Positions 5,363 through 18,650 of a stretch of 20,193 nucleotides of DNA are shown piece by piece. Under the pieces are notes generated by a model. That model was not told the origin of the DNA and did not search any database. It saw nothing but the letters and a program-made list of their open reading frames with translations. Source of the stretch: a virus; the IMG/VR virus record IMGVR_UViG_3300036770_000289, positions 1-20,193 of that record, one strand, 5' to 3'. Every line of letters begins with the position of its first letter. Within the stretch, counting starts at the first letter, position 1. A program made the translations under genes and the position numbers.

Positions 5363-7441
5363 TCAGGCCACGCGCATCAATGTGTCAAGCGGACCAGCCA
5401 CCGACGTGTATTGATCCAACACCTCAATGATTTCTTTCCCAACCTGATAGGCGTTCCCGCCGATACCAGCCGTCACATTCACCACCACAGATGTCGCTGC
5501 GGTCTCGGGCATGATGCGTTGATCGCTGACTGGTGTGGGCGGAACAGGAATCAATCCTTGCACCGGGTTGGCATTCGAGAACTTCGGCACCGTCGCAGCC
5601 AACGTTTGCAACGCAGTCAATGCTTCCGTGTATTCCTGCAAGGCTTCGGTCTGCTCATCCAGAGCTTCCTTGTATCGCTTGGCTGCATCGGTCTGACGCT
5701 TTGTCAATTCCTCCACCGCCGACTGAAGTGGGATAAGTTCCTCGTCACCTTCGCGCAACCCTTCGGTGGCGATGCGAAGTTGACGACGAGCCTCAGTCAA
5801 ATCGGTGGCAACCTCAATCTGACGGTCCTCGGCATCAACCACCTGGAATTTCGCTTCGGCGAGACGAATCTCCGCCTTGCGAATCTCATCCGGTGTCGCC
5901 TCCGGGTCTTGGCGCAACTTCGCCAACTCACGCTCAGCGTCCCTGACCGCGATGACTGATTCCTCGACATCAAACTTGGCACGAGCCACCGTGCGTTCTG
6001 CGGCTGCGACCTTGCGATTGGCGGACGCAATCTGCTCCGGTGAACCACCCTGCTGAGCTTTCGCCAAATCCTCCTGAGCCTTCGCCAACGCCTTGTCTGC
6101 ATCAGCCAACGACACTCGAGCCTCGCTCGCACGCTCCTGGCTACGACCGAACGCATCCGATGCAGACTTAGCCGACTTCACCGCCGCTGTGTAATCCTTC
6201 AAGCGTTCCTGAAATGTCTTGACGTCGTCGGCTGCTTTCTTTGATTTGCCGCCAGCCTTCTCGGCACCATCACCAAAATCGTCCAGGCTGGTTCGCGTAC
6301 CTTTGGCGACACGGCCAACCTGTGCTAGACGACGCTCAACTACATCCATCGGACCCGCAGCAATGATTTCTAGACGCTTCGATGCCTGAGATACCGAATC
6401 GCGGAAGCCATCAAATGCTCCCTGAACTTCTTGTGTCCTGCGTGCGATACCGGCTTGGATGGATTCAATCGGCTTGCCGAAAGCAAGAGCCGAACGCACC
6501 AAATCAATCGCCACGAATAATGGGCTGAGTGTTGCGACGACACCTTCCATGAACTTGTAGACGCCAACTGCGACGCCTTCAAGTTGGTCAAGGATTGCGA
6601 TGCCTGCTTGTCCGAATGCGGCAACGAAGACCGCCAATGCAGATTTCACGCCTTGGCTGCGAAATGCTTCGATTGCCATGCTGAATGCTGGGATGACGGT
6701 TCTGGTGAGATAATCCGTCACATCGGTCAACGCTGGAAGGAGCATTTCGCCGAACTGTTCTCGCAGTTCATCGACCGCAATACCGAATGCGCGGAATCGG
6801 CCTTGTGCCGAATCGGCGGATGCCGCTGCGGCACCCTCAAAGGTGTCAGCCAACTGACGGGTGATTGCCTCAAAGTTCTTTGTCTTGACCGCGTTCTGAT
6901 CGAGTGGCACACCGAGACGAGTTAGAGCCGTGACCGAACCTTGGCTTGCACGGGCAAGCGCAATCGTCACCGACTCGAGGTCACGGCCCGACCCGGCACT
7001 GATGTCGAGCGCAAGCTTCAACAAATCCTGCGACTGCTTCAGATCACCAGTCGCACGAACCAGCGTCGTCATCGCCGGACGCAACTGGTCATCCGACACC
7101 GCAGCCGCCTGCGACATCGACGTAATGAACTCTTCCGTTGCGGCAACCAACTGCTTTGACTCACCGAACGTCGTGTTCAATGCCTGAGCAAGACGCGCCT
7201 GCGACTCCGCATCCTCAGCCGCAGCCTTCACCGCCAACCCAGCTGCGGCAGACACCGCACCGAACGCCGCAGTGCCAGCAATTGAAATCGTCTTGAACGA
7301 TGGCAGCAAGTCCATCAACTTGCCGCCGAGACCACCCTTACCGAGCGTCGCCGTCGCTTCCTTGCCGACCTTGTCGAACGTAGAGATGAGCGACTTCGCG
7401 TCGCCAACGAGCTTGACAAGGAACTCGCGTGACACGGCCAT
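5363..7441 (-). CDS. Tape measure protein (692 aa)
   Basis: Sets tail length; at about 1.5 angstrom per residue it predicts a tail near 100 nm. The opening MAVSREFLVKLVGDAKSL is typical of the family. Residues 50-240 are Ala-rich with 'ALARASQGSVTALTRLGVPL' (161-180) and 'SADSAQGRFRAFGIAVDEL' (208-226), both familiar from actinophage tape measures. Hydrophobic stretches run at about 265-320 and may cross the host membrane. Residues 400-615 are a long coiled coil of Ala, Glu, Lys and Arg, with roughly repeating 'A..A...la.A' blocks. No lytic peptidase or transglycosylase motif is seen. It is the longest gene in the window. No clear SD lies upstream of ATG 7441. Confidence 0.92.
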   Translation of the reverse strand: MAVSREFLVKLVGDAKSLISTFDKVGKEATATLGKGGLGGKLMDLLPSFKTISIAGTAAFGAVSAAAGLAVKAAAEDAESQARLAQALNTTFGESKQLVAATEEFITSMSQAAAVSDDQLRPAMTTLVRATGDLKQSQDLLKLALDISAGSGRDLESVTIALARASQGSVTALTRLGVPLDQNAVKTKNFEAITRQLADTFEGAAAASADSAQGRFRAFGIAVDELREQFGEMLLPALTDVTDYLTRTVIPAFSMAIEAFRSQGVKSALAVFVAAFGQAGIAILDQLEGVAVGVYKFMEGVVATLSPLFVAIDLVRSALAFGKPIESIQAGIARRTQEVQGAFDGFRDSVSQASKRLEIIAAGPMDVVERRLAQVGRVAKGTRTSLDDFGDGAEKAGGKSKKAADDVKTFQERLKDYTAAVKSAKSASDAFGRSQERASEARVSLADADKALAKAQEDLAKAQQGGSPEQIASANRKVAAAERTVARAKFDVEESVIAVRDAERELAKLRQDPEATPDEIRKAEIRLAEAKFQVVDAEDRQIEVATDLTEARRQLRIATEGLREGDEELIPLQSAVEELTKRQTDAAKRYKEALDEQTEALQEYTEALTALQTLAATVPKFSNANPVQGLIPVPPTPVSDQRIMPETAATSVVVNVTAGIGGNAYQVGKEIIEVLDQYTSVAGPLDTLMRVA

Positions 7442-7456
7442 GACGACCGATTCTAC

Positions 7457-8179
7457 TCAGTAGAGATTGAGCGTTTTCCTGAGTTCCCTGAACTCCGTCA
7501 ACAACGATTGTGCAATCTCCGTTTGAGTCATTCCGTTGAAACGCGACAAGTCCTGCGGGTCATTCCACCAGCGTTCATCAAGTATCTCTGCGACACGACG
7601 ACTCTCATGCGGTTCACGCCACGTCGCCGCCTTCGGTGACGGACCGAACTTGACGGAACGAAACACCGACAAGTCACCCGGATCAAGGAACGCGCCATGC
7701 TGATACTTGAACCCAGGCGTGATACCTGGGCGATGTTGCGGTCGGTAGAAGAGTCGTGCGGGGTCTTTCGTCTGCGGGTCACCTGCAACATTGATTCGCT
7801 CCAAGAGCTGAATCCACACATCACTCCACATGTGCCCAGGCACAGGTTTGGCGAGCGGCAGAACCAAGTGCCAGTGCTCGTCACCTGACTGATGCGACCA
7901 TGTGGTGTAGGCGAGATACTCCAAGCCGTCGAGCTTGGCGTAGTCGAACGATTCGCCGTCCATGTCGACGACGAGACAGGTCACGTTCTTGACGTTGCGA
8001 TTGCCTCGAGTGGACAGGTGGTAATACTCGACCGGTGACCAGAGCTCACGGTTCGTCTTGTCGGCGTTCTCCACCGTGGATTCGAGCAGCGATTGCAACC
8101 CGTTCCACGAGATGGCAAAGTGCTTTGGCTTGACGCTCTTGACGTCGTCAAACTTCACTGCCTTGATTTCAGTAGGCAT
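7457..8179 (-). CDS. Primase-polymerase (AEP)-like protein (240 aa)
   Basis: The central block has the motif order of archaeo-eukaryotic-type primases in phages: 'TCLVVDMDGESF' with D72-x-D74 (motif I), 'YTTWSHQSGDEHWHLVLPLA' (91-110) with S95-H96 and H102/H104 (motif II region), and 'DPARLFYRPQHRPG' (139-152) resembling the 'dpsRlfylP' block. The C-terminal third has no helicase or zinc domain, so it is at most a stand-alone catalytic domain. It has a strong GGAGG six nt before the ATG and lies between the gp10-like and tape measure genes, an odd place for a replication gene. Activity cannot be judged from sequence alone; a nuclease/Rep-like fold is the main alternative. Confidence 0.6.
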   Translation of the reverse strand: MPTEIKAVKFDDVKSVKPKHFAISWNGLQSLLESTVENADKTNRELWSPVEYYHLSTRGNRNVKNVTCLVVDMDGESFDYAKLDGLEYLAYTTWSHQSGDEHWHLVLPLAKPVPGHMWSDVWIQLLERINVAGDPQTKDPARLFYRPQHRPGITPGFKYQHGAFLDPGDLSVFRSVKFGPSPKAATWREPHESRRVAEILDERWWNDPQDLSRFNGMTQTEIAQSLLTEFRELRKTLNLY

Positions 8180-8206
8180 GGCGGGCCTCCTACGGTCACC
8201 CTAGCG

Positions 8207-8812
8207 TCAGCGTGCCCCGATCGCAAGCTTCTTCAATACGCCCTCAATTGCGTTGGCGTACTCAATGGCAATGAATGACCGTGAGTCTCTGACCGCCTGC
8301 CAGAAGAAGTAGCCCTGCCTGCCGCGGTGACGCAAAAACTGCTTGGTCGTTGGTCGTCTGCGGCCACCGAACTCGGCACCGTAGAACACCATACCCATCG
8401 TCGCCGTACCCGGCTTCGGTATCTTCTTGCCCAAGAACGGACCTTCGATACCTGCCGTTCGCTGACGATTCGTGCGACTCTTCGACGGATAGCCGCGGTT
8501 GTGATCGAGCTTGATGGTCGGCACACGGTCACGCCTGGCACGCAACCCGTCAACCACGACTTGTGCCTGAGACCTGCCTGACGAGCCGGGGCGTTGCGGA
8601 CCGTGCTTGGGTTGTGACGCTGCGTTGGCTTTCGCCCGGTCAACGACGTGCTGGGCGACGACCTGGGCGGCGATGCGCATCTCCCTGTTGAAGTTCTCGT
8701 TCGCTTGGCTGGCTTCACGCAGGAACTTGAATAAGCCGTCTACGACGAAGGCGACTTCACCGGCGCGACCGACTGCCGCAGCTCCCGATGATGTGCGGGT
8801 GAGTTCTGCCAT
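8207..8812 (-). CDS. HK97 gp10-like/neck or tail-completion protein (201 aa)
   Basis: The N-terminal half is helical ('EVAFVVDGLFKFLREASQ', 'IAAQVVAQHVVDRAKANA'). A basic, Gly/Pro/Arg-rich middle follows ('KHGPQRPGSSGRSQAQVVV', 'RGYPSKSRTNRQRTAG'), and then 'MVFYGAEFGGRRRPTTKQF' and 'RHRGRQGYFFWQAVRDS'. The 'EFGg.r.....f....gr.GYFfw.avr' ending is typical of HK97 gp10-like and actinophage minor tail proteins that help join head and tail. It starts one base after the frameshift product's stop. Most siphophages place this gene before the tail tube; here it comes after the chaperones. Confidence 0.75.
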   Translation of the reverse strand: MAELTRTSSGAAAVGRAGEVAFVVDGLFKFLREASQANENFNREMRIAAQVVAQHVVDRAKANAASQPKHGPQRPGSSGRSQAQVVVDGLRARRDRVPTIKLDHNRGYPSKSRTNRQRTAGIEGPFLGKKIPKPGTATMGMVFYGAEFGGRRRPTTKQFLRHRGRQGYFFWQAVRDSRSFIAIEYANAIEGVLKKLAIGAR

Positions 8813-8813
8813 G

Positions 8814-9232
8814 TCAGCGATTGTACGGTGTGTTCGGGTTCTGTTTCACGAAACGCCAACGCAGATACGCCTGCATCGTGAACAACATTCGTGGAGACTC
8901 AGCCAACAGTTGAGACGGCGCGATGCCTGTCTCGCACGCCAGGTAGGCGATCAACCAGTGGGCTGAGTTCTCTCCAAAGGGCCGATCTTGGCCTCCTCAG
9001 TGGAGATGCTGATTGCTTCGACTGTCTCGGTCCATGCGTGGAACTCGAGGCTGGTGACGTTGCGACGCTTCTCGGAATGCCAAGCAAGCCAGGCGAGATC
9101 ACGCACTTTGAGGTCGTCTTCAATCTTTGCCATTGAGACATTGTGGATTTCTTCGTATTTGACGAAGTCCGCAAACTCGGCAACGGATGTGCGCACGCCG
9201 TCAGTGGTCGTGACGCTCAATGCGATTTTCAT
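8814..9232 (-). CDS. Tail assembly chaperone, -1 frameshift product (gpGT-like, about 139 aa)
   Basis: After CCCTTTG (8981-8975) a ribosome slipping by -1 continues in an open frame to TGA 8816-8814. It adds about 53 residues to the first 86, including 'AHWLIAYLACETGIAPSQLL' and 'AESPRMLFTMQAYLRWR'. The 'aYla.EtGi.PsqLl...prml.tm..yl' pattern is what is seen in T-extensions of actinophage chaperones, so this is unlikely to be chance. The extension has no start codon and SD of its own in a sensible place, and it ends one base before the next gene's ATG. This architecture is the well-known G/GT system of phage lambda and relatives. Confidence 0.88.
8951..9232 (-). CDS. Tail assembly chaperone, short form (gpG-like, 93 aa)
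   Basis: Short product of the chaperone pair that coats the tape measure before tail assembly. The sequence 'MKIALSVTTTDGVRTSVAE' leads to 'DLAWLAWHSEKRR' and 'TSLEFHAWTETVEAIS', common in actinophage chaperones ('f..W...v..i'). It ends PLERTQPTG with a TGA at 8953-8951. About 3 kb of other small genes are not needed to explain its place: it follows the tail tube directly. A -1 slippery site sits eight codons before its stop, giving the longer form listed separately. Confidence 0.85.
   Translation of the reverse strand: MKIALSVTTTDGVRTSVAEFADFVKYEEIHNVSMAKIEDDLKVRDLAWLAWHSEKRRNVTSLEFHAWTETVEAISISTEEAKIGPLERTQPTG
8975..8997 (-). promoter_or_regulatory. Programmed -1 frameshift signal (CCCTTTG with upstream SD-like AGGAGG)
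   Basis: The heptamer C-CCT-TTG (8981-8975) is an exact X-XXY-YYZ slippery site in the zero frame of the short chaperone. AGGAGG (8997-8992) lies ten nt before it. An SD-like element about ten nt upstream is the known stimulator of -1 frameshifting in E. coli dnaX. A short GGCC/GGCC inverted repeat lies between them. I see no strong hairpin just downstream. Confidence 0.85.
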
Positions 9233-10893: not shown

Positions 10894-11529
10894 CTACTCA
10901 ACAGGTTCCCAAGCAGAACCCACGAACCTGAGTATCTCGCAGCCGTAGTCATTGCGCAATCGGTTGGCGACGATTCGCAACTGTTGCATCGCACCCTCGA
11001 ATGATGGGTCCACTCCACCAGTGCGGATGTATCCATCGAAGTTTGATTTGTCGCCAATCTTGCCCATGTCTACTCCAATGAGTCGCATCTCGGCACAGCC
11101 CATGTAGGCCGCAAGATGTATGGCGATTGCCGATGAGTTTCCACCGATGACCAATGAATCAGGGTCGGTAGGCCAGCCTTCTGTCGGATTCCATACTGGC
11201 CATCGTGGTCTGAATGTGATGTTGTTCCCGACTCCAGGATGAGTCGGTGTACGGTCGCCTGATACATCACAATCAGGAGTGACCATCAGCAAGTCTGGAC
11301 GTTTATCGCAAATCATCTGAATGTCTGGATGGTGACGTGAATAGTTTGAGGCCGTGATGTAGTTCTTGATGCCCCAAGAAAATGCGGATTGATTGATTGA
11401 CACGACCCGCTTGTCGTCGTAGAACTCGGGCGGTGTGGTCTCGAGGCTCGGGCCGGAGCCGACAACCCAGACGGTCTGTCCACTCCAGATACCTTTCAGG
11501 TCGCTAAGGGTCTGAGGCGTGGCGGCCAT
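10894..11529 (-). CDS. DUF115/Maf-like Rossmann protein (211 aa)
   Basis: The opening 'GQTVWVVGSGPSLETTP' (17-33) and the later 'GGNSSAIAIHLAAYMG', followed by 'EMRLIGVDMG', are the two typical blocks of the DUF115 (MptE-like/Maf) family. Bacterial Maf proteins are linked to adding nonulosonic acids to flagellin, and DUF115 proteins are frequent in phage and bacterial glycan clusters. It closes the cassette, so a sugar-transfer or sugar-handling role is inferred. It uses the ATG at 11529 with only a weak SD (GGGTGAAGA). Twelve nt separate it from the head-tail connector gene, the first clean gap after the run of overlaps. Confidence 0.7.
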   Translation of the reverse strand: MAATPQTLSDLKGIWSGQTVWVVGSGPSLETTPPEFYDDKRVVSINQSAFSWGIKNYITASNYSRHHPDIQMICDKRPDLLMVTPDCDVSGDRTPTHPGVGNNITFRPRWPVWNPTEGWPTDPDSLVIGGNSSAIAIHLAAYMGCAEMRLIGVDMGKIGDKSNFDGYIRTGGVDPSFEGAMQQLRIVANRLRNDYGCEILRFVGSAWEPVE

Positions 11530-12173
11530 TCTTCACCCGGTATCACTCGACCTTCCCTCAACAGGTTCGCAAAGATGATGACGTCGTTGACAGCTTGCTG
11601 GTCGTCGGTTGCGGTGAGTGCGTCGTTGTGTCGCTGCCACGTCCAACGAACAGCAGTATCAAATGTGGCCCGGTAGCCGTGGGCTCGCAGCTCGCACCAG
11701 TGAATCCAATCGACGTACTTGTGGCTGCGGTACGGAATCTTGCGCCACACTTCGGTTCTGATGATGGCGAGTCCTGGCATGCCGTTATGCCCGAGATCGA
11801 GCAGCCGTTCATATTGGTCGGGTGTGCCGTAGCAGAGACCGCCGTTCCAACGCCCAGCCACGTTCACCGCATCGCCATCCAGGACGAGCCCTTGGAAGAA
11901 GTCGGCGTCCATCGTGTCGTCAACAGGCAGATGCGTCGCCCACTCGGATTCGACCGCACGCACGGCAATGTTTGCGCACGGCCAGATACGCGAATCCCAA
12001 TAGTTGATAACCCGCCACCAGCCAGGCACCTTCACATCTGCGTTCGTGACGAGGATGACCTCCTGCGGCTGCACCGTCAACCGCTCAACCGACGCAACGA
12101 ACCGTTCACCGAACCGTTCCCAATAGTTGCGGTCGAACGGAGAGATGATTGCTACTGGCGCGTGCGATACCAC
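11496..12173 (-). CDS. GT-A-like glycosyltransferase-family protein (225 aa)
   Basis: The N-terminal part reads like a GT2-type Rossmann domain: 'APVAIISPFDRNYWERF', then 'QEVILVTNADVKVPGWW' (37-53), and 'THLPVDDTMDADFF' (80-93), with D85-D86 as the candidate DxD-like metal site. 'GMPGLAIIRTEVWRKIPY' and 'KYVDWIHWCELRAHGYRA' resemble acceptor-side segments of GT2 proteins. The match is weaker than for the two genes upstream, so the exact family is uncertain. It uses a GTG start at 12173 with AAAGG rather far upstream. It overlaps the DUF115-like gene by 34 nt, the longest overlap in the cassette. Confidence 0.65.
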   Translation of the reverse strand: MVSHAPVAIISPFDRNYWERFGERFVASVERLTVQPQEVILVTNADVKVPGWWRVINYWDSRIWPCANIAVRAVESEWATHLPVDDTMDADFFQGLVLDGDAVNVAGRWNGGLCYGTPDQYERLLDLGHNGMPGLAIIRTEVWRKIPYRSHKYVDWIHWCELRAHGYRATFDTAVRWTWQRHNDALTATDDQQAVNDVIIFANLLREGRVIPGEEWPPRLRPLAT

Positions 12174-12886
12174 GATGCGGGAGCCTTTCCATCCAGAATC
12201 ATCTTCGGCAACCGAGCATCAAGCTCGGCATCCTCAAACAAGCCTTCGCCACGAATCGACCTGCCAATCGTGTAGTTCTTCTCCATGAACGCCTCCGGTT
12301 CGGCGACCATCAGTTCTTGGTGGCAGAACTCACGCATCTTGTTCGCCGCCCATTCTGGGCCACCCATCCACGACAGATGCCACCCCGACCTCAGGACGGG
12401 CATTGAGTAGCGTCCAGAACGCGCCTGTTGCGCCGAAACGGGTCGGGTGCCCCAAGGACCGCCCACCGCCGTGAACTCGTCATCCAGACGCCAATAGACG
12501 CTCATGACGGTCCGTTTCATCACCCAAGCCCGCCACTGCCCATAGGCAAGCGTCTGAATGTCCTCAGGGTCCCAAATCTCGTCACAGTCACACACCGTCA
12601 CAATGTCCTGCTCGTGAGGCTGGAACTCTTCCACGATGCGGAACAGGTGGTCACGCTGGGCGTGTTCGGCAGCCCAACCCCACGGCCCGTGATGCGCGAA
12701 CGTCCGATACACCACCTTCGGGTGGTTTGCGTGCCGCGGCTCCAACCCGGTCTTCTTGCGTCGACCCATGAACGTCGACTCACCCTCCAAGATGATGAAC
12801 TTGTCCACCGCATCCTCAAGGTGACTGAGCCGCACATCAAGCATGTCAGCTTCCTGGTTGTAGAGCATGAGGTCAAAAACGCGCAC
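12152..12886 (-). CDS. GT17-like glycosyltransferase (244 aa)
   Basis: The pattern is that of glycosyltransferase family 17, named after eukaryotic beta-1,4-mannosyl-glycoprotein N-acetylglucosaminyltransferase. It shows 'VFDLMLYNQEADMLDVRLS' (3-21), 'DAVDKFIILEGESTFMGR' (25-42), then 'WAAEHAQRDHLFR' (71-83) and the acidic 'IVTVCDCDEIWDPEDI' (95-110), with D100-C-D102-E103 as the likely metal/donor site. Members also occur in giant viruses, bacteria and phages; the substrate of phage copies is not known to me. It uses a GTG start at 12886 with GGGGAG close upstream. It overlaps both neighbours, by 14 nt upstream and 22 nt downstream. Confidence 0.75.
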   Translation of the reverse strand: MRVFDLMLYNQEADMLDVRLSHLEDAVDKFIILEGESTFMGRRKKTGLEPRHANHPKVVYRTFAHHGPWGWAAEHAQRDHLFRIVEEFQPHEQDIVTVCDCDEIWDPEDIQTLAYGQWRAWVMKRTVMSVYWRLDDEFTAVGGPWGTRPVSAQQARSGRYSMPVLRSGWHLSWMGGPEWAANKMREFCHQELMVAEPEAFMEKNYTIGRSIRGEGLFEDAELDARLPKMILDGKAPASWYRTRQ

Positions 12887-13448
12887 GACTTCTCCCCATC
12901 AGCAATACACGGTCATCGTTGATAACCATCTTCTTGTGCAACTCAAAGTGCGTCTCAACCTGACGAATCAAATCATCAAGCGAAGGAACGTGCCAATGCG
13001 TCGGACTCGTGATGTATTCATTCACAATGATCCAATCGGCGCACGCAGCAGCCCTTACGATCACCCGTCGCCATTCCTCTTGGTAGACGAGGCTGTAGCT
13101 GCATACTGCAAGTTCGTATTCACCGCTCGCCGTCGCAGCGATACCGTCACCATGACGAAAGTCCACATCAGGAAAAGAACTGCGTGCTTTTCGTATTGCC
13201 GTCTCGGAGACATCAAAGCCGACGACTTTGCGGCCGGGTATCGCCCATTTGTGTGTCTTGCTTCCTTTTCCGCAACCGATGTCAAGAATGCTGCTAAACG
13301 CCCGAGAACCAATCAGCATGTCAACCAACTGAAACTCCATAACTCGAAGGTCTGACATCGACCAAGCATCAAATCCTTCTTCGTCTTCGGCTTGATAAAG
13401 ACGCTCAAAGTCACCAGGCGGTTGCAAGTATTTGTGCCAAAAAGCCAT
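12873..13448 (-). CDS. Class I SAM-dependent methyltransferase (191 aa)
   Basis: Motif I is clear ('SSILDIGCGKGSKTHKW'), followed by the acidic end of strand beta-2 ('KVVGFDVSETAIRKA'), a motif with 'DVDFRHGDGIA', and 'GEYELAVCSYSLVY' at the position of motif IV. This is the small-molecule/sugar type of Rossmann methyltransferase; there is no DNA-methyltransferase catalytic motif such as DPPY or PCQ. Given its place between glycosyltransferases, sugar O-methylation is the best guess. The ATG at 13448 overlaps the preceding TGA (TGATG), which favours it over the in-frame TTG at 13457. Its end overlaps the next gene by 14 nt. Confidence 0.8.
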   Translation of the reverse strand: MAFWHKYLQPPGDFERLYQAEDEEGFDAWSMSDLRVMEFQLVDMLIGSRAFSSILDIGCGKGSKTHKWAIPGRKVVGFDVSETAIRKARSSFPDVDFRHGDGIAATASGEYELAVCSYSLVYQEEWRRVIVRAAACADWIIVNEYITSPTHWHVPSLDDLIRQVETHFELHKKMVINDDRVLLMGRSRARF

Positions 13449-14101
13449 CAATCCCAACCCAACTCTCTGCGTCGCTGCAACTCGTAATCAACCAAATCCT
13501 CCCAAGGCTGATTCAGCCGCTCATTGAACCGTTGCAGATTCGCTTGGAACGTGAGAGAGTTTCGTTGCTGAAACTTCTCACTCGATGCCAGGGTGCTCGA
13601 GTTGCGATGGTTGATTGCCGCCGTCGACTGCACGATTTCAACGCCTGCACGCTGGGCACGCACCTCGTAATCATTGTCCTCGAAGTAAGCGGGATGGAAG
13701 CCCTCATGAAACAACCCGACCTTGGCAACCACCTCAGCCCCAATCCACACGCATGACCAGTTCGGTTTGCCGCCGAGCACGATGTTGTCGGGTCGACAGT
13801 TCGCATAAAACGCCTGCGTCCCACCCTCACCGAACTGGATGTCGTGATTCACAATCATCCAACCAGGTGAGAACGGTGTCGCCTTGATACCCAGATTCCA
13901 CGACGCCGCGACACCGAGATTGTTCGGCATCCGCCACACATAGATTTCCGACGCCTTATGCGTCCGCACATTCCACTCCGAGTTGCCGTTGTCGATGCAA
14001 AGCAGCTTCCCTATCTTGCCCTCGAACGACAGCAGCATCGCATCCACCCGCCAATGCTCCGTGAGCACCGGCACGATTACGACTGGGACGATCGGCACCA
14101 C
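13448..14101 (-). CDS. Glycosyltransferase, GT-A fold, GT2-like (217 aa)
   Basis: The N-terminus 'VPIVPVVIVPVLTEHW' is followed by 'LCIDNGNSEW', the first nucleotide-sugar strand of GT2 enzymes, then 'RMPNNLGVAASWNLGI' (58-72), a strong GT2/rhamnosyltransferase-type motif. The metal-binding position is 'VNHDIQFG' (84-91), a variant of DxD. 'FHPAYFEDNDYEVRAQRAG' (135-153) matches the acceptor/catalytic ED region. The enzyme is short and has no TM anchor, so it is likely soluble. It uses a GTG start at 14101 with GGAG eight bases upstream, inside the end of the GT4-like gene. Its stop overlaps the methyltransferase ATG by one base. Confidence 0.8.
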   Translation of the reverse strand: MVPIVPVVIVPVLTEHWRVDAMLLSFEGKIGKLLCIDNGNSEWNVRTHKASEIYVWRMPNNLGVAASWNLGIKATPFSPGWMIVNHDIQFGEGGTQAFYANCRPDNIVLGGKPNWSCVWIGAEVVAKVGLFHEGFHPAYFEDNDYEVRAQRAGVEIVQSTAAINHRNSSTLASSEKFQQRNSLTFQANLQRFNERLNQPWEDLVDYELQRRRELGWD

Positions 14102-15378
14102 GCCGCAATCTCCTTCATCGCAGGCTTCCAGAACTCGTCGTACACGCGGTCCGCTTCGTACTGCTTGGCGAACTCAATCGCCTTCTTCGACTTCTCGCCA
14201 CGACGCTCATACGCCTGCTCGAGCGAGTTCAAGATTGAACTGACCGACGGCGTCAAGAACCACGAACGCTGAGCCGCATCCCAATATGGTTGACCATCCA
14301 CAACCCAACCATCACCAACCAACTCAGGCTGAGCCGTGAAGTTCGAGACGATGACAGGTGTGCCGCACGCTTGAGCTTCAATGACCGGGATGCCGAATCC
14401 TTCACCCATGCTCGCGGCGAGCAGCACGTCGGCTGCGGTGTAGAGCGTCGCCATCGCATGAATCGGCAGACCGTTGCGATACAGGTACGGGTCGGCCCAC
14501 TTGATGCGGTCCTTCGGTATCCCGCACACTTCAGCCAGGGCATTCAGATCGAGTCCGCCCATCGACCCGCTCGCCTCAGAATGCATGTAGAGAACCGCGT
14601 CAGGATGTCTTGACGCGAACATGCTGAACGCCATGAAGTTTTCGGCGAACGCCTTACGCGAAGGATGCACACCTTTGTTCGCCGCGGTCATCATTACCAC
14701 GAACTGACCGTCCTCGTACCCCATGATTTGGCGACCGCTGATTTGTTTGCCAGCATTGTCTTTCACGAACGGCGACGGCTTGTAATCGGATTCGATGCCG
14801 TGCGGAACATAGACGTTGCGCACACCGGCACGATCCAACTCGGCCTTCCCGAACTTGCTCATCGCAATCGGCAACACGTTCGGACGTTTGCACCACGCCA
14901 ACACATCGGGCGGAATCGGCGCATGATCAATCGGTACCCACGAAGCAATGTTCGGCACCTTGTCCAGATTCGGAGCCTTCAACACCCACACATCAAACAG
15001 AGTGATGAGCAACTTGGGCAGTTTCGTCGCCTGAGTCCACTCCATCCAGTGGGCGACGATGATGTCGTCAGAGTACGGGTTCAGTCCCCGCGGGTAGATT
15101 TTGATGCCGTTCCACGTCGACGTCGAACCTTCGAGTCCGTACATTGCGTGGATTGCGATTTCGTGCCCTTCTTTGACGAGCCTTTGGACCGCTTGCTGGG
15201 TTTGCTGGCCGTAGCCCGTTCCCGCCCACGGGGCGTTGGAGTACCAGACCGCCCTGACCGCGTCCGAGGTTCGACGACTGACTCCTCCCACAAGTGAGCC
15301 ACGCCCAGCTGCAAGAGCAGGGTCGCCTCCGCTCCCGGTAAGTCCATTGGCACGCCCTTGATTACCACTCGCATTCAC
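14077..15378 (-). CDS. Glycosyltransferase, GT-B fold, GT4-like (433 aa)
   Basis: Probably transfers a sugar from a nucleotide-sugar donor. The N-terminal half has 'VWYSNAPWAGTGYGQQTQQ' (44-62), the Gly-rich acceptor-side loop of GT-B enzymes, and 'IIVAHWMEW' (106-114). The C-terminal half has the donor-site signature 'GEGFGIPVIEAQACGTPV' with the E-x7-E pair (E326/E334) typical of GT4. The first 40 residues are Gly/Ala/Ser-rich and may be a flexible extension. The GTG at 15378 is chosen for its GGAG six bases upstream. It is the first gene after the capsid terminator, and its end overlaps the next gene by 25 nt. The target could be virion proteins or host surface glycan; the sequence does not say which. 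Confidence 0.85.
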   Translation of the reverse strand: MNASGNQGRANGLTGSGGDPALAAGRGSLVGGVSRRTSDAVRAVWYSNAPWAGTGYGQQTQQAVQRLVKEGHEIAIHAMYGLEGSTSTWNGIKIYPRGLNPYSDDIIVAHWMEWTQATKLPKLLITLFDVWVLKAPNLDKVPNIASWVPIDHAPIPPDVLAWCKRPNVLPIAMSKFGKAELDRAGVRNVYVPHGIESDYKPSPFVKDNAGKQISGRQIMGYEDGQFVVMMTAANKGVHPSRKAFAENFMAFSMFASRHPDAVLYMHSEASGSMGGLDLNALAEVCGIPKDRIKWADPYLYRNGLPIHAMATLYTAADVLLAASMGEGFGIPVIEAQACGTPVIVSNFTAQPELVGDGWVVDGQPYWDAAQRSWFLTPSVSSILNSLEQAYERRGEKSKKAIEFAKQYEADRVYDEFWKPAMKEIAAWCRSSQS

Positions 15379-17531: not shown

Positions 17532-18650
17532 TTACTTGTCCACGAACAGTCTTGACAAGCGAGCCAACGTCACGAGGTAGCCGAGGCGGCCTTCCTCTTC
17601 ACGCACACGCTCAGCCTGACGCTCGAACCATTGCATCGCAGGTGACGGATCGAGCGGGTTGATTCCCCACAAATAGAACGCGACCGCGCCCGCACCGGGA
17701 AAGCCGTCGTTGTCTGCGTCGCTGTTCTGCGGGGCTTCGAGGTCTACCAAGTGTCTTGCTCCCCAAGCGTTCGCACGAATGACTTTATCCTCGCTGATTC
17801 TTCCCGCAGCCATGTCGCGGGCTTCACGAATAGTTCTTGCCACAAGACCGTCACCACCGAGACCCTGACCGTAGTAGTCGAGACCTTTGCGGGCTGCTTC
17901 ACGGATGTAGGACGGTACGTCGAATGTGAGTTGTCTGACGTAGTCGATTGGTGGTTCCTCGAAGTATGGGGCGTCTTCATCGTTGACGTCTCCAGTCTGC
18001 ACTTCTTGCCCTGGGTTGTCGTTGGGTCCACCGTGTACGGGTTCCCATGCGTTGCAGTAGTAGGCGGATGAAACTTCTGCATCCCACCGTTTGCAGTAGA
18101 AGTTCTTGAAGTAGCCGCAGTTTCCGCAGTTGCGGTTCGCTGGCACGTCGGCGGTGACGGCTGGACGATAGTTGTCTGGAAGTGCACGATCTTCCATCTC
18201 ATCTTCGTCTTCGTCTTCTGGTTCGTCCTCGGGTTCCTCAAGTTCGCCAATGCGAGTCAGCGTCGAGAACTTATGTCCGACGATGACGTCGGTGTCTTCC
18301 CAGCCGCCTTCGACCTGTTGATAAATCTGGATCAGGGCCACCGGGTCATCTTCGGTGGCTTCCAACTCGAAGTCGGTACCTGGCACGCGCACGGTGCCGG
18401 AACGGAAGATTTCTTTGATTTCACCACGCGCACGACCACCCGAACTATTCCACGAAACATAATCACCCACCATCAACTCATCAGGACGAGCACGCTCACC
18501 GCCTGGTTCCATGTCCTCGGCAATCGACACCGCCACCATCTGGTCGATGGCGGCCTGCTTCGTCGTATGGCAGCCGATGACTTCTCCGTCTTCCTTCTCA
18601 ACCGCCCAGTCTGAGCAGTTCGGATTTGATTCGGAAATGAAGTACGGCAT
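17532..18650 (-). CDS. Multidomain head-region protein: Tudor-like, four-cysteine and capsid-associated domains (372 aa)
   Basis: Four parts can be read. Residues 1-45 ('EVIGCHTTKQAAIDQMVAV') resemble a short N-terminal segment common in phage head-protease-region proteins. Residues 60-135 (VGDYVSWNSSGGRARGEI onward, ending VGHKFSTLTRI) resemble the DUF2945/Tudor-like fold. Residues 136-155 are an acidic linker of Glu/Asp. Residues 175-199 carry C175-x2-C178-x7-C186-x12-C199, a possible metal or Fe-S site. Residues about 245-350 (REAARKGLDYYGQGLGGDG, RISEDKVIRANAWGARH, DGFPGAGAVAFYLWG) match a domain I recognise from phage portal/protease neighbourhoods, usually ending in an 'IAWALWGGD'-type motif. 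It lies directly upstream of the prohead protease, so a head-assembly role is inferred. The fusion as a whole is not one I can name. Confidence 0.75.
   Translation of the reverse strand: MPYFISESNPNCSDWAVEKEDGEVIGCHTTKQAAIDQMVAVSIAEDMEPGGERARPDELMVGDYVSWNSSGGRARGEIKEIFRSGTVRVPGTDFELEATEDDPVALIQIYQQVEGGWEDTDVIVGHKFSTLTRIGELEEPEDEPEDEDEDEMEDRALPDNYRPAVTADVPANRNCGNCGYFKNFYCKRWDAEVSSAYYCNAWEPVHGGPNDNPGQEVQTGDVNDEDAPYFEEPPIDYVRQLTFDVPSYIREAARKGLDYYGQGLGGDGLVARTIREARDMAAGRISEDKVIRANAWGARHLVDLEAPQNSDADNDGFPGAGAVAFYLWGINPLDPSPAMQWFERQAERVREEEGRLGYLVTLARLSRLFVDK

Follow-up and report, generated by a model that had tools for sequence, protein, structure and literature searches.

The window, that is, the whole stretch of 20,193 bases that was analysed and that makes up a complete IMG/VR virus record, carries on its minus strand a stand-alone gene of the AEP (primase-polymerase) type located between a gp10/Neck1-like gene and the tape measure gene (Table 1). 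On the same strand, HK97-type protease and capsid genes, a glycosyltransferase cassette and a connector gene lie upstream, as do the genes for the tail terminator, major tail protein, tail chaperone and gp10/Neck1-like protein, and the tape measure gene is followed downstream by more tail genes, a lysin-like gene and an exonuclease gene. The gp10-like gene is separated from the AEP gene by 27 nt (27-61 nt in relatives) and the AEP gene from the tape measure gene by 15 nt (11-19 nt in relatives). The original prediction had placed a primase-polymerase-like gene at this point of a late operon, behind a strong Shine-Dalgarno sequence; its position among genes that all share the minus strand is confirmed, the late-operon placement is supported, and the Shine-Dalgarno sequence could be read directly.

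Table 1. Features of the AEP gene and its immediate neighbours in the window.
Feature	Position	Strand	Details
Stand-alone AEP (primase-polymerase type) gene	7457..8179	minus	240 aa, ATG start, ORF
Shine-Dalgarno TAGGAGG	8186..8192	minus	6 nt upstream of ATG, read from sequence
gp10/Neck1-like gene	8207..8812	minus	phrog_5, E=0.0026 (weak); directly upstream of AEP gene
Tape measure gene	5363..7441	minus	phrog_4704, E=5.8e-9; directly downstream of AEP gene
Motif 1, D72-M-D74 (predicted metal ligands)	7958..7966	minus	D72 in 163/163 homologues, D74 in 162/163 (one Glu)
Motif 2, S95-H96...H102-[WY]-H104	7868..7897	minus	S95, H102 and H104 in 163/163; H96 in 160/163
Motif 3, D134 (predicted metal ligand) to R142 (DPAR block)	7754..7780	minus	D134 and R142 in 163/163
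C-terminal helical extension, residues 191-240	7460..7609	minus	Conserved WWNxPQDLSRFxGMT...EFRELRK; helices in AF2 model

Purifying selection, with a dN/dS of about 0.20 compared to 0.07-0.29 for the neighbour genes, acts on the open reading frame, which is a real gene. Its GC content is ordinary (0.56-0.58, the same as that of its neighbours), and neither a promoter nor a terminator of its own was found, the promoter scan having covered the sigma-70 consensus only.

Profile comparisons identify the 240-aa protein as a genuine AEP-superfamily domain that is homologous to the N-domains of phage VirE-type primase-helicases. Residues 46-168 match PHROG profiles for DNA primases and helicases of phages (phrog_9765, phrog_256 and phrog_2135, the best being phrog_9765 with E=4.9e-13), and HHalign aligned the protein with the N-domains of VirE-type primase-helicases at 97.9% probability (E=4.5e-13) and with a second set of such domains at 96.8%. 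No family in Pfam, NCBIfam or PADLOC covers the protein, the sole Pfam row (Double-GTPase, E=0.2) being noise, and a PDB sequence search returned nothing relevant. Among 50,697 phage records there was no full-length family member, only primase or helicase domains with about 20-31% identity. All family members are stand-alone proteins of 231-248 aa, contig-truncated copies excepted, and helicase, zinc and PriCT parts are absent from them, so that the expected stand-alone nature of the protein is borne out in all homologues. The C-terminal extension stands in place of the PriCT and helicase parts of related primases.

The conservation of the active-site motifs was assessed in 163 homologues, in which D72, S95, H102, H104, D134, D139, R142 and Y145 never vary. 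A joint alignment of 55 sequences, in which the 240-aa family was combined with VirE-type AEPs, left D72, D74, Y91, T93, P108, L109, D134, T137, R142, Y145 and P147 invariant. In the 163 homologues, the three elements expected of an AEP, namely D/E-x-D/E, then S/T...H, then D, are present in the right order, and such an arrangement of the three motif blocks is far beyond chance. This agrees with the block order noted in the original prediction (DxD, SH...HWH, DPAR) with one correction: alignment to the VirE-type primases, together with a by-eye alignment to S-2L PrimPol (PMC8065100), indicates that the third metal ligand is not the aspartate of the DPAR block but D134 (...INVAGD-P-QTKDPAR...), just upstream of the block, which itself provides R142.

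An AF2 model of the protein reached a pLDDT of 87.1 using an alignment that was enriched with VirE-type AEP sequences and on which the model leaned; modelling from 18 close homologues alone gave a poor result (pLDDT 45) that was discarded. As anticipated, the predicted fold is of the AEP type. The sole significant PDB match in Foldseek was the AEP domain of cyanophage S-2L PrimPol (6zp9, E=6.6e-5, prob 1.00), with a modest structural similarity (TM 0.41/0.51), and more than 60 viral models matched at E <1e-3, many of them annotated as primases, helicases or VirE proteins. The model and the 6zp9 match together point to an RRM-like palm of the AEP type, AEP homologues having been part of the alignment.

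Each scan of uncultured phage sequences detected 276-282 relatives, and 82 IMG/VR loci of a first clade and 81 of a second clade were examined. In every locus with enough flank (about 160, from both clades), the order is gp10-like gene, AEP gene, tape measure gene, all in the same orientation. The family is thus always found in the tail module, and never in the replication module where VirE-type primases are located. The divergence of the AEP gene tracks that of the tail genes, with Spearman coefficients of 0.75-0.82 compared to 0.76-0.78 between tail genes, values to which the two-clade structure contributes. The AEP gene is a long-standing resident of this locus and not a fresh moron. When 84,980 genomes of bacteria and archaea were scanned twice with patterns, no relative of the gene turned up, so that the scans pointed to no host and to no prophage copy. 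The phages carrying the gene are probably actinobacterial. One relative (L085) has, at positions 1591-1998, an open reading frame with a WhiB-like cysteine pattern, recognised by eye, which suggests an actinobacterial host.

The AEP gene is non-essential, as shown by naturally occurring loci from which it is cleanly missing. In a sample drawn by the major tail protein, and thus blind to the AEP, the gene was present in 62 of the 66 loci with enough flank, and in a sample drawn by the gp10 allele of an AEP-minus lineage it was present in 70/75; these samples overlap and include near-identical contigs. The loci without it (4/66 and 5/75) belong to three related lineages, and in them the gp10 gene is followed by the tape measure gene about 40-60 nt on. 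The tape measures of two of these lineages are 87-88% identical to that of the window, and that of the third is 62% identical. Directly before the tape-measure start, the AEP-minus loci and the window have GTAGAATCGG in common. Two long records lacking the AEP gene (24-26 kb; they may be incomplete) were searched with the profile, which found no AEP of the 240-aa family elsewhere in them. All five sampled loci of one gp10 allele group (L386, L387, L388, L389 and L297) are without the AEP gene and the other 70 all have it. Every AEP-minus locus falls into this allele group, a linkage between gp10 type and AEP presence that could be functional or simple hitchhiking. No comparable gene is annotated at this place in uncultured EBPR siphovirus 6 or in Pontimonas phage phiPsal1, the nearest cultured relative (TerL 40%, tail tube 44%). 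Clean absence from lineages with an 87-88% identical tape measure speaks for an accessory enzyme and against a part of the tail.

The original prediction proposed to check for a replicative primase elsewhere in the genome, and one is indeed present in related genomes. Longer relatives contain an open frame of about 613 aa that combines a PF09250 Prim-Pol domain with AAA_25, located in a region before which the window ends; PF09250 was found in 12/24 long records, of which the remainder may be fragments. HHalign gave no match between the tail-module AEP and this PF09250 Prim-Pol replicase. As the relatives have a separate PrimPol+AAA_25 replicase, the tail-module gene is a second AEP, and the idea that the phage has no other replicative primase was dismissed for the same reason. 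The replicase also belongs to the AEP superfamily, but it is of another family, lies in the replication region and is fused to AAA_25.

Comparison with characterised systems shows both shared and distinct features. Homology to the VirE-type primase-helicases (PHROG 9765/256; for example, Brevibacillus phage Emery gp96 and Clostridioides phage phiCDKH02 XAN63665.1) covers about 150 residues and includes D-x-D, D134, T137, R142, Y145, P147 and the pattern [ST]T.SH....[RH].[RH]L..PL. However, the VirE-type proteins, at about 780-820 aa, extend well past the AEP domain and are encoded in replication modules, whereas the tail-module protein has only 240 aa, and the 240-aa family has His-x-His where VirE-type AEPs mostly have Arg (R-x-R). 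By sequence alignment and by eye, E85, D87, H118 and D146 of S-2L PrimPol (6ZP9; roles in PMC8065100) align with D72, D74, H104 and D134, whereas R157, a triphosphate contact in S-2L, corresponds to a Tyr in an alignment with an identity of only about 12%. S-2L PrimPol is a replicative enzyme with additional PriCT-2 and VirE parts that the 240-aa protein does not have, and its AEP domain alone (PP-N190) polymerises DNA (PMC8065100). The fold search also retrieved a member of the same family, the uncharacterised 234-aa protein A0A6J5S580 of an uncultured Caudovirales phage (E=1.9e-25, 45% identity over essentially the full length).

The analysis shows homology, a predicted fold, conserved motifs, a fixed locus, optionality and the co-occurrence of a replicative primase, and the activity, substrate, and time or place of action of the protein are inferred. 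It is probably a catalytic, accessory late DNA polymerase or primase that works on phage DNA. As such, it would be a catalytically competent AEP nucleotidyltransferase consisting of one domain, a DNA primase/polymerase that is directed by a template and lacks helicase, zinc and PriCT parts. It would be produced as a second AEP alongside the tail proteins, from the late operon, with replication being performed by the distinct PrimPol-AAA_25. Two metals would be bound by D72, D74 and D134, the incoming triphosphate may be contacted by H104 and R142, and phage DNA would receive additional nucleotides either in the late stage of infection or when the next cell is entered. Candidate jobs are the filling of gaps or ends in packaged or incoming genomes, or priming, and the previously suggested priming early after injection is a possible role among these. 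For de novo priming, a PriCT or zinc module is usually required, which counts against this role for a 240-aa protein that has neither. If the protein is active, the late-infected cell is the slightly favoured place of action, packaging in the tail followed by ejection has a smaller though appreciable chance, and any other place is quite improbable. A late cytoplasmic role, in which gaps or ends are filled before packaging, needs the fewest assumptions.

The retention of the active-site positions in 163 homologues (with one D74E), together with the dN/dS of about 0.2, favours an enzyme over a relic, and conserved catalytic positions combined with dispensability favour an enzyme over a part of the tail. 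Nevertheless, the strict placement beside the tape measure gene is a point against an accessory polymerase, as a protein with a structural or assembly function might equally be encoded there. The lack of a matching database family, the modest PDB similarity, the dependence of the good model on VirE-type sequences and the Tyr in place of S-2L R157 also weigh against it. Such a role might have been taken on by an AEP fold that lost its synthesis activity and now serves tail assembly as a chaperone or neck accessory. Strict linkage to gp10 and the tape measure, covariation of AEP presence with the gp10 allele group and divergence that follows the tail genes would all fit this reading, but the active-site residues are retained, apart from the one D74E, the gene is cleanly missing where the tape measure, chaperone and distal tail gene are nearly the same, and a normal G/GT-type chaperone gene with its slippery site is already present; we consider it improbable. 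The natural empty sites argue against any obligatory structural role, and the reading as an indispensable part of the tail was rejected because of them. The original prediction had regarded frequent presence at this locus together with a demonstrated tail role as speaking against it, and of these, frequent presence was found and a demonstrated tail role was not. It is also conceivable, though in our view unlikely, that the AEP travels in or on the tail and is ejected with the genome in order to repair, prime or fill DNA ends at entry. The fixed spot directly before the tape measure gene in all relatives with enough flank is consistent with such delivery, the conserved C-terminal helical extension could serve in docking, and there are precedents in other molecules. 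In phage P23-45, an RNA polymerase likewise tied to the tape-measure gene, but cellular-type, unrelated to AEP and fused to the tape, is a shown virion enzyme that transcribes pre-early genes (PMC10770324), and ejected virion RNA polymerases and transferred primases have been reviewed (PMC5512222). Against this, it is not obvious why a dsDNA genome would require a primase on entry, the AEP is absent from phages with an 87-88% identical tape measure, and operon position alone is no proof of packaging. That a tail-delivered primase-polymerase makes DNA at entry, as the DNA-synthesis counterpart of virion RNA polymerases, is a still more doubtful proposition.

The gene had further been suggested to be a moron-like insertion, or else a domain reused in a non-replicative role such as defence. 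Its optionality and natural empty sites agree with the former, but conserved synteny, ordinary composition, the failure to find a promoter or terminator and co-divergence with the tail genes do not, and it was synteny and co-divergence that led to the rejection of a recent moron. Independently expressed cargo that protects a lysogen or excludes rival phages is very improbable, as the locus is constant in about 160 cases, no composition shift was found and the patterns used detected no copies in the bacterial and archaeal genomes; in the absence of a PADLOC match, the defence role found no support. Lastly, H102-x-H104 could be read as an HUH motif, making the protein an enzyme that nicks phage DNA instead of polymerising it. 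The HxH is present in 163/163 homologues, whereas most VirE-type AEPs have R-x-R, and there are weak Foldseek matches to Rep/E1 origin-binding domains and a chance-level tblastn match to microvirus VP4 (E=0.2). However, sequence and profile homology is to primases, the best structural match is an AEP with Rep matches at E of about 0.3 or worse, and the protein still has the acidic residues of AEPs (DxD and D134). Homology and fold favour an AEP, and on these grounds an HUH nickase was set aside as very improbable.

The AEP fold and superfamily are already known. As far as the collections and literature were searched, the novelty lies in a family of single-domain AEPs that has a fixed place in a tail operon and coexists with a replicative AEP. 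An abundant family not covered by Pfam or NCBIfam is now defined, and it suggests that DNA is synthesised in a step linked to virion production or to DNA entry, a step that current models of siphophage infection do not include. The natural AEP-minus lineages, two of which have a nearly identical tape measure, constitute a built-in control for function.

Several other features were observed on the minus strand of the window. A CCCTTTG slippery heptamer (8975-8981) lies near the end of the tail-chaperone open reading frame (8951-9232), and an overlapping extension in the -1 frame continues past it, down to about 8814, making a programmed frameshift of the G/GT type likely; the heptamer is present in 74/76 relatives. 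Between the capsid and connector genes, positions 10894-15378 contain a cassette in which glycosyltransferase, methyltransferase-like and MptE-like genes are predicted. Relatives also carry two of the glycosyltransferase genes, a comparable cassette occupies the corresponding position in phiPsal1, and the cassette possibly serves virion or host-surface glycosylation. A 372-aa gene upstream of the protease gene (17532-18650), located in a late operon, has an Hva1_TUDOR match (PF11160) above the cut-off. After the lysis genes, positions 43-1050 encode an SbcD-like phage exonuclease (phrog_284, E=3.5e-51) that is conserved in relatives.
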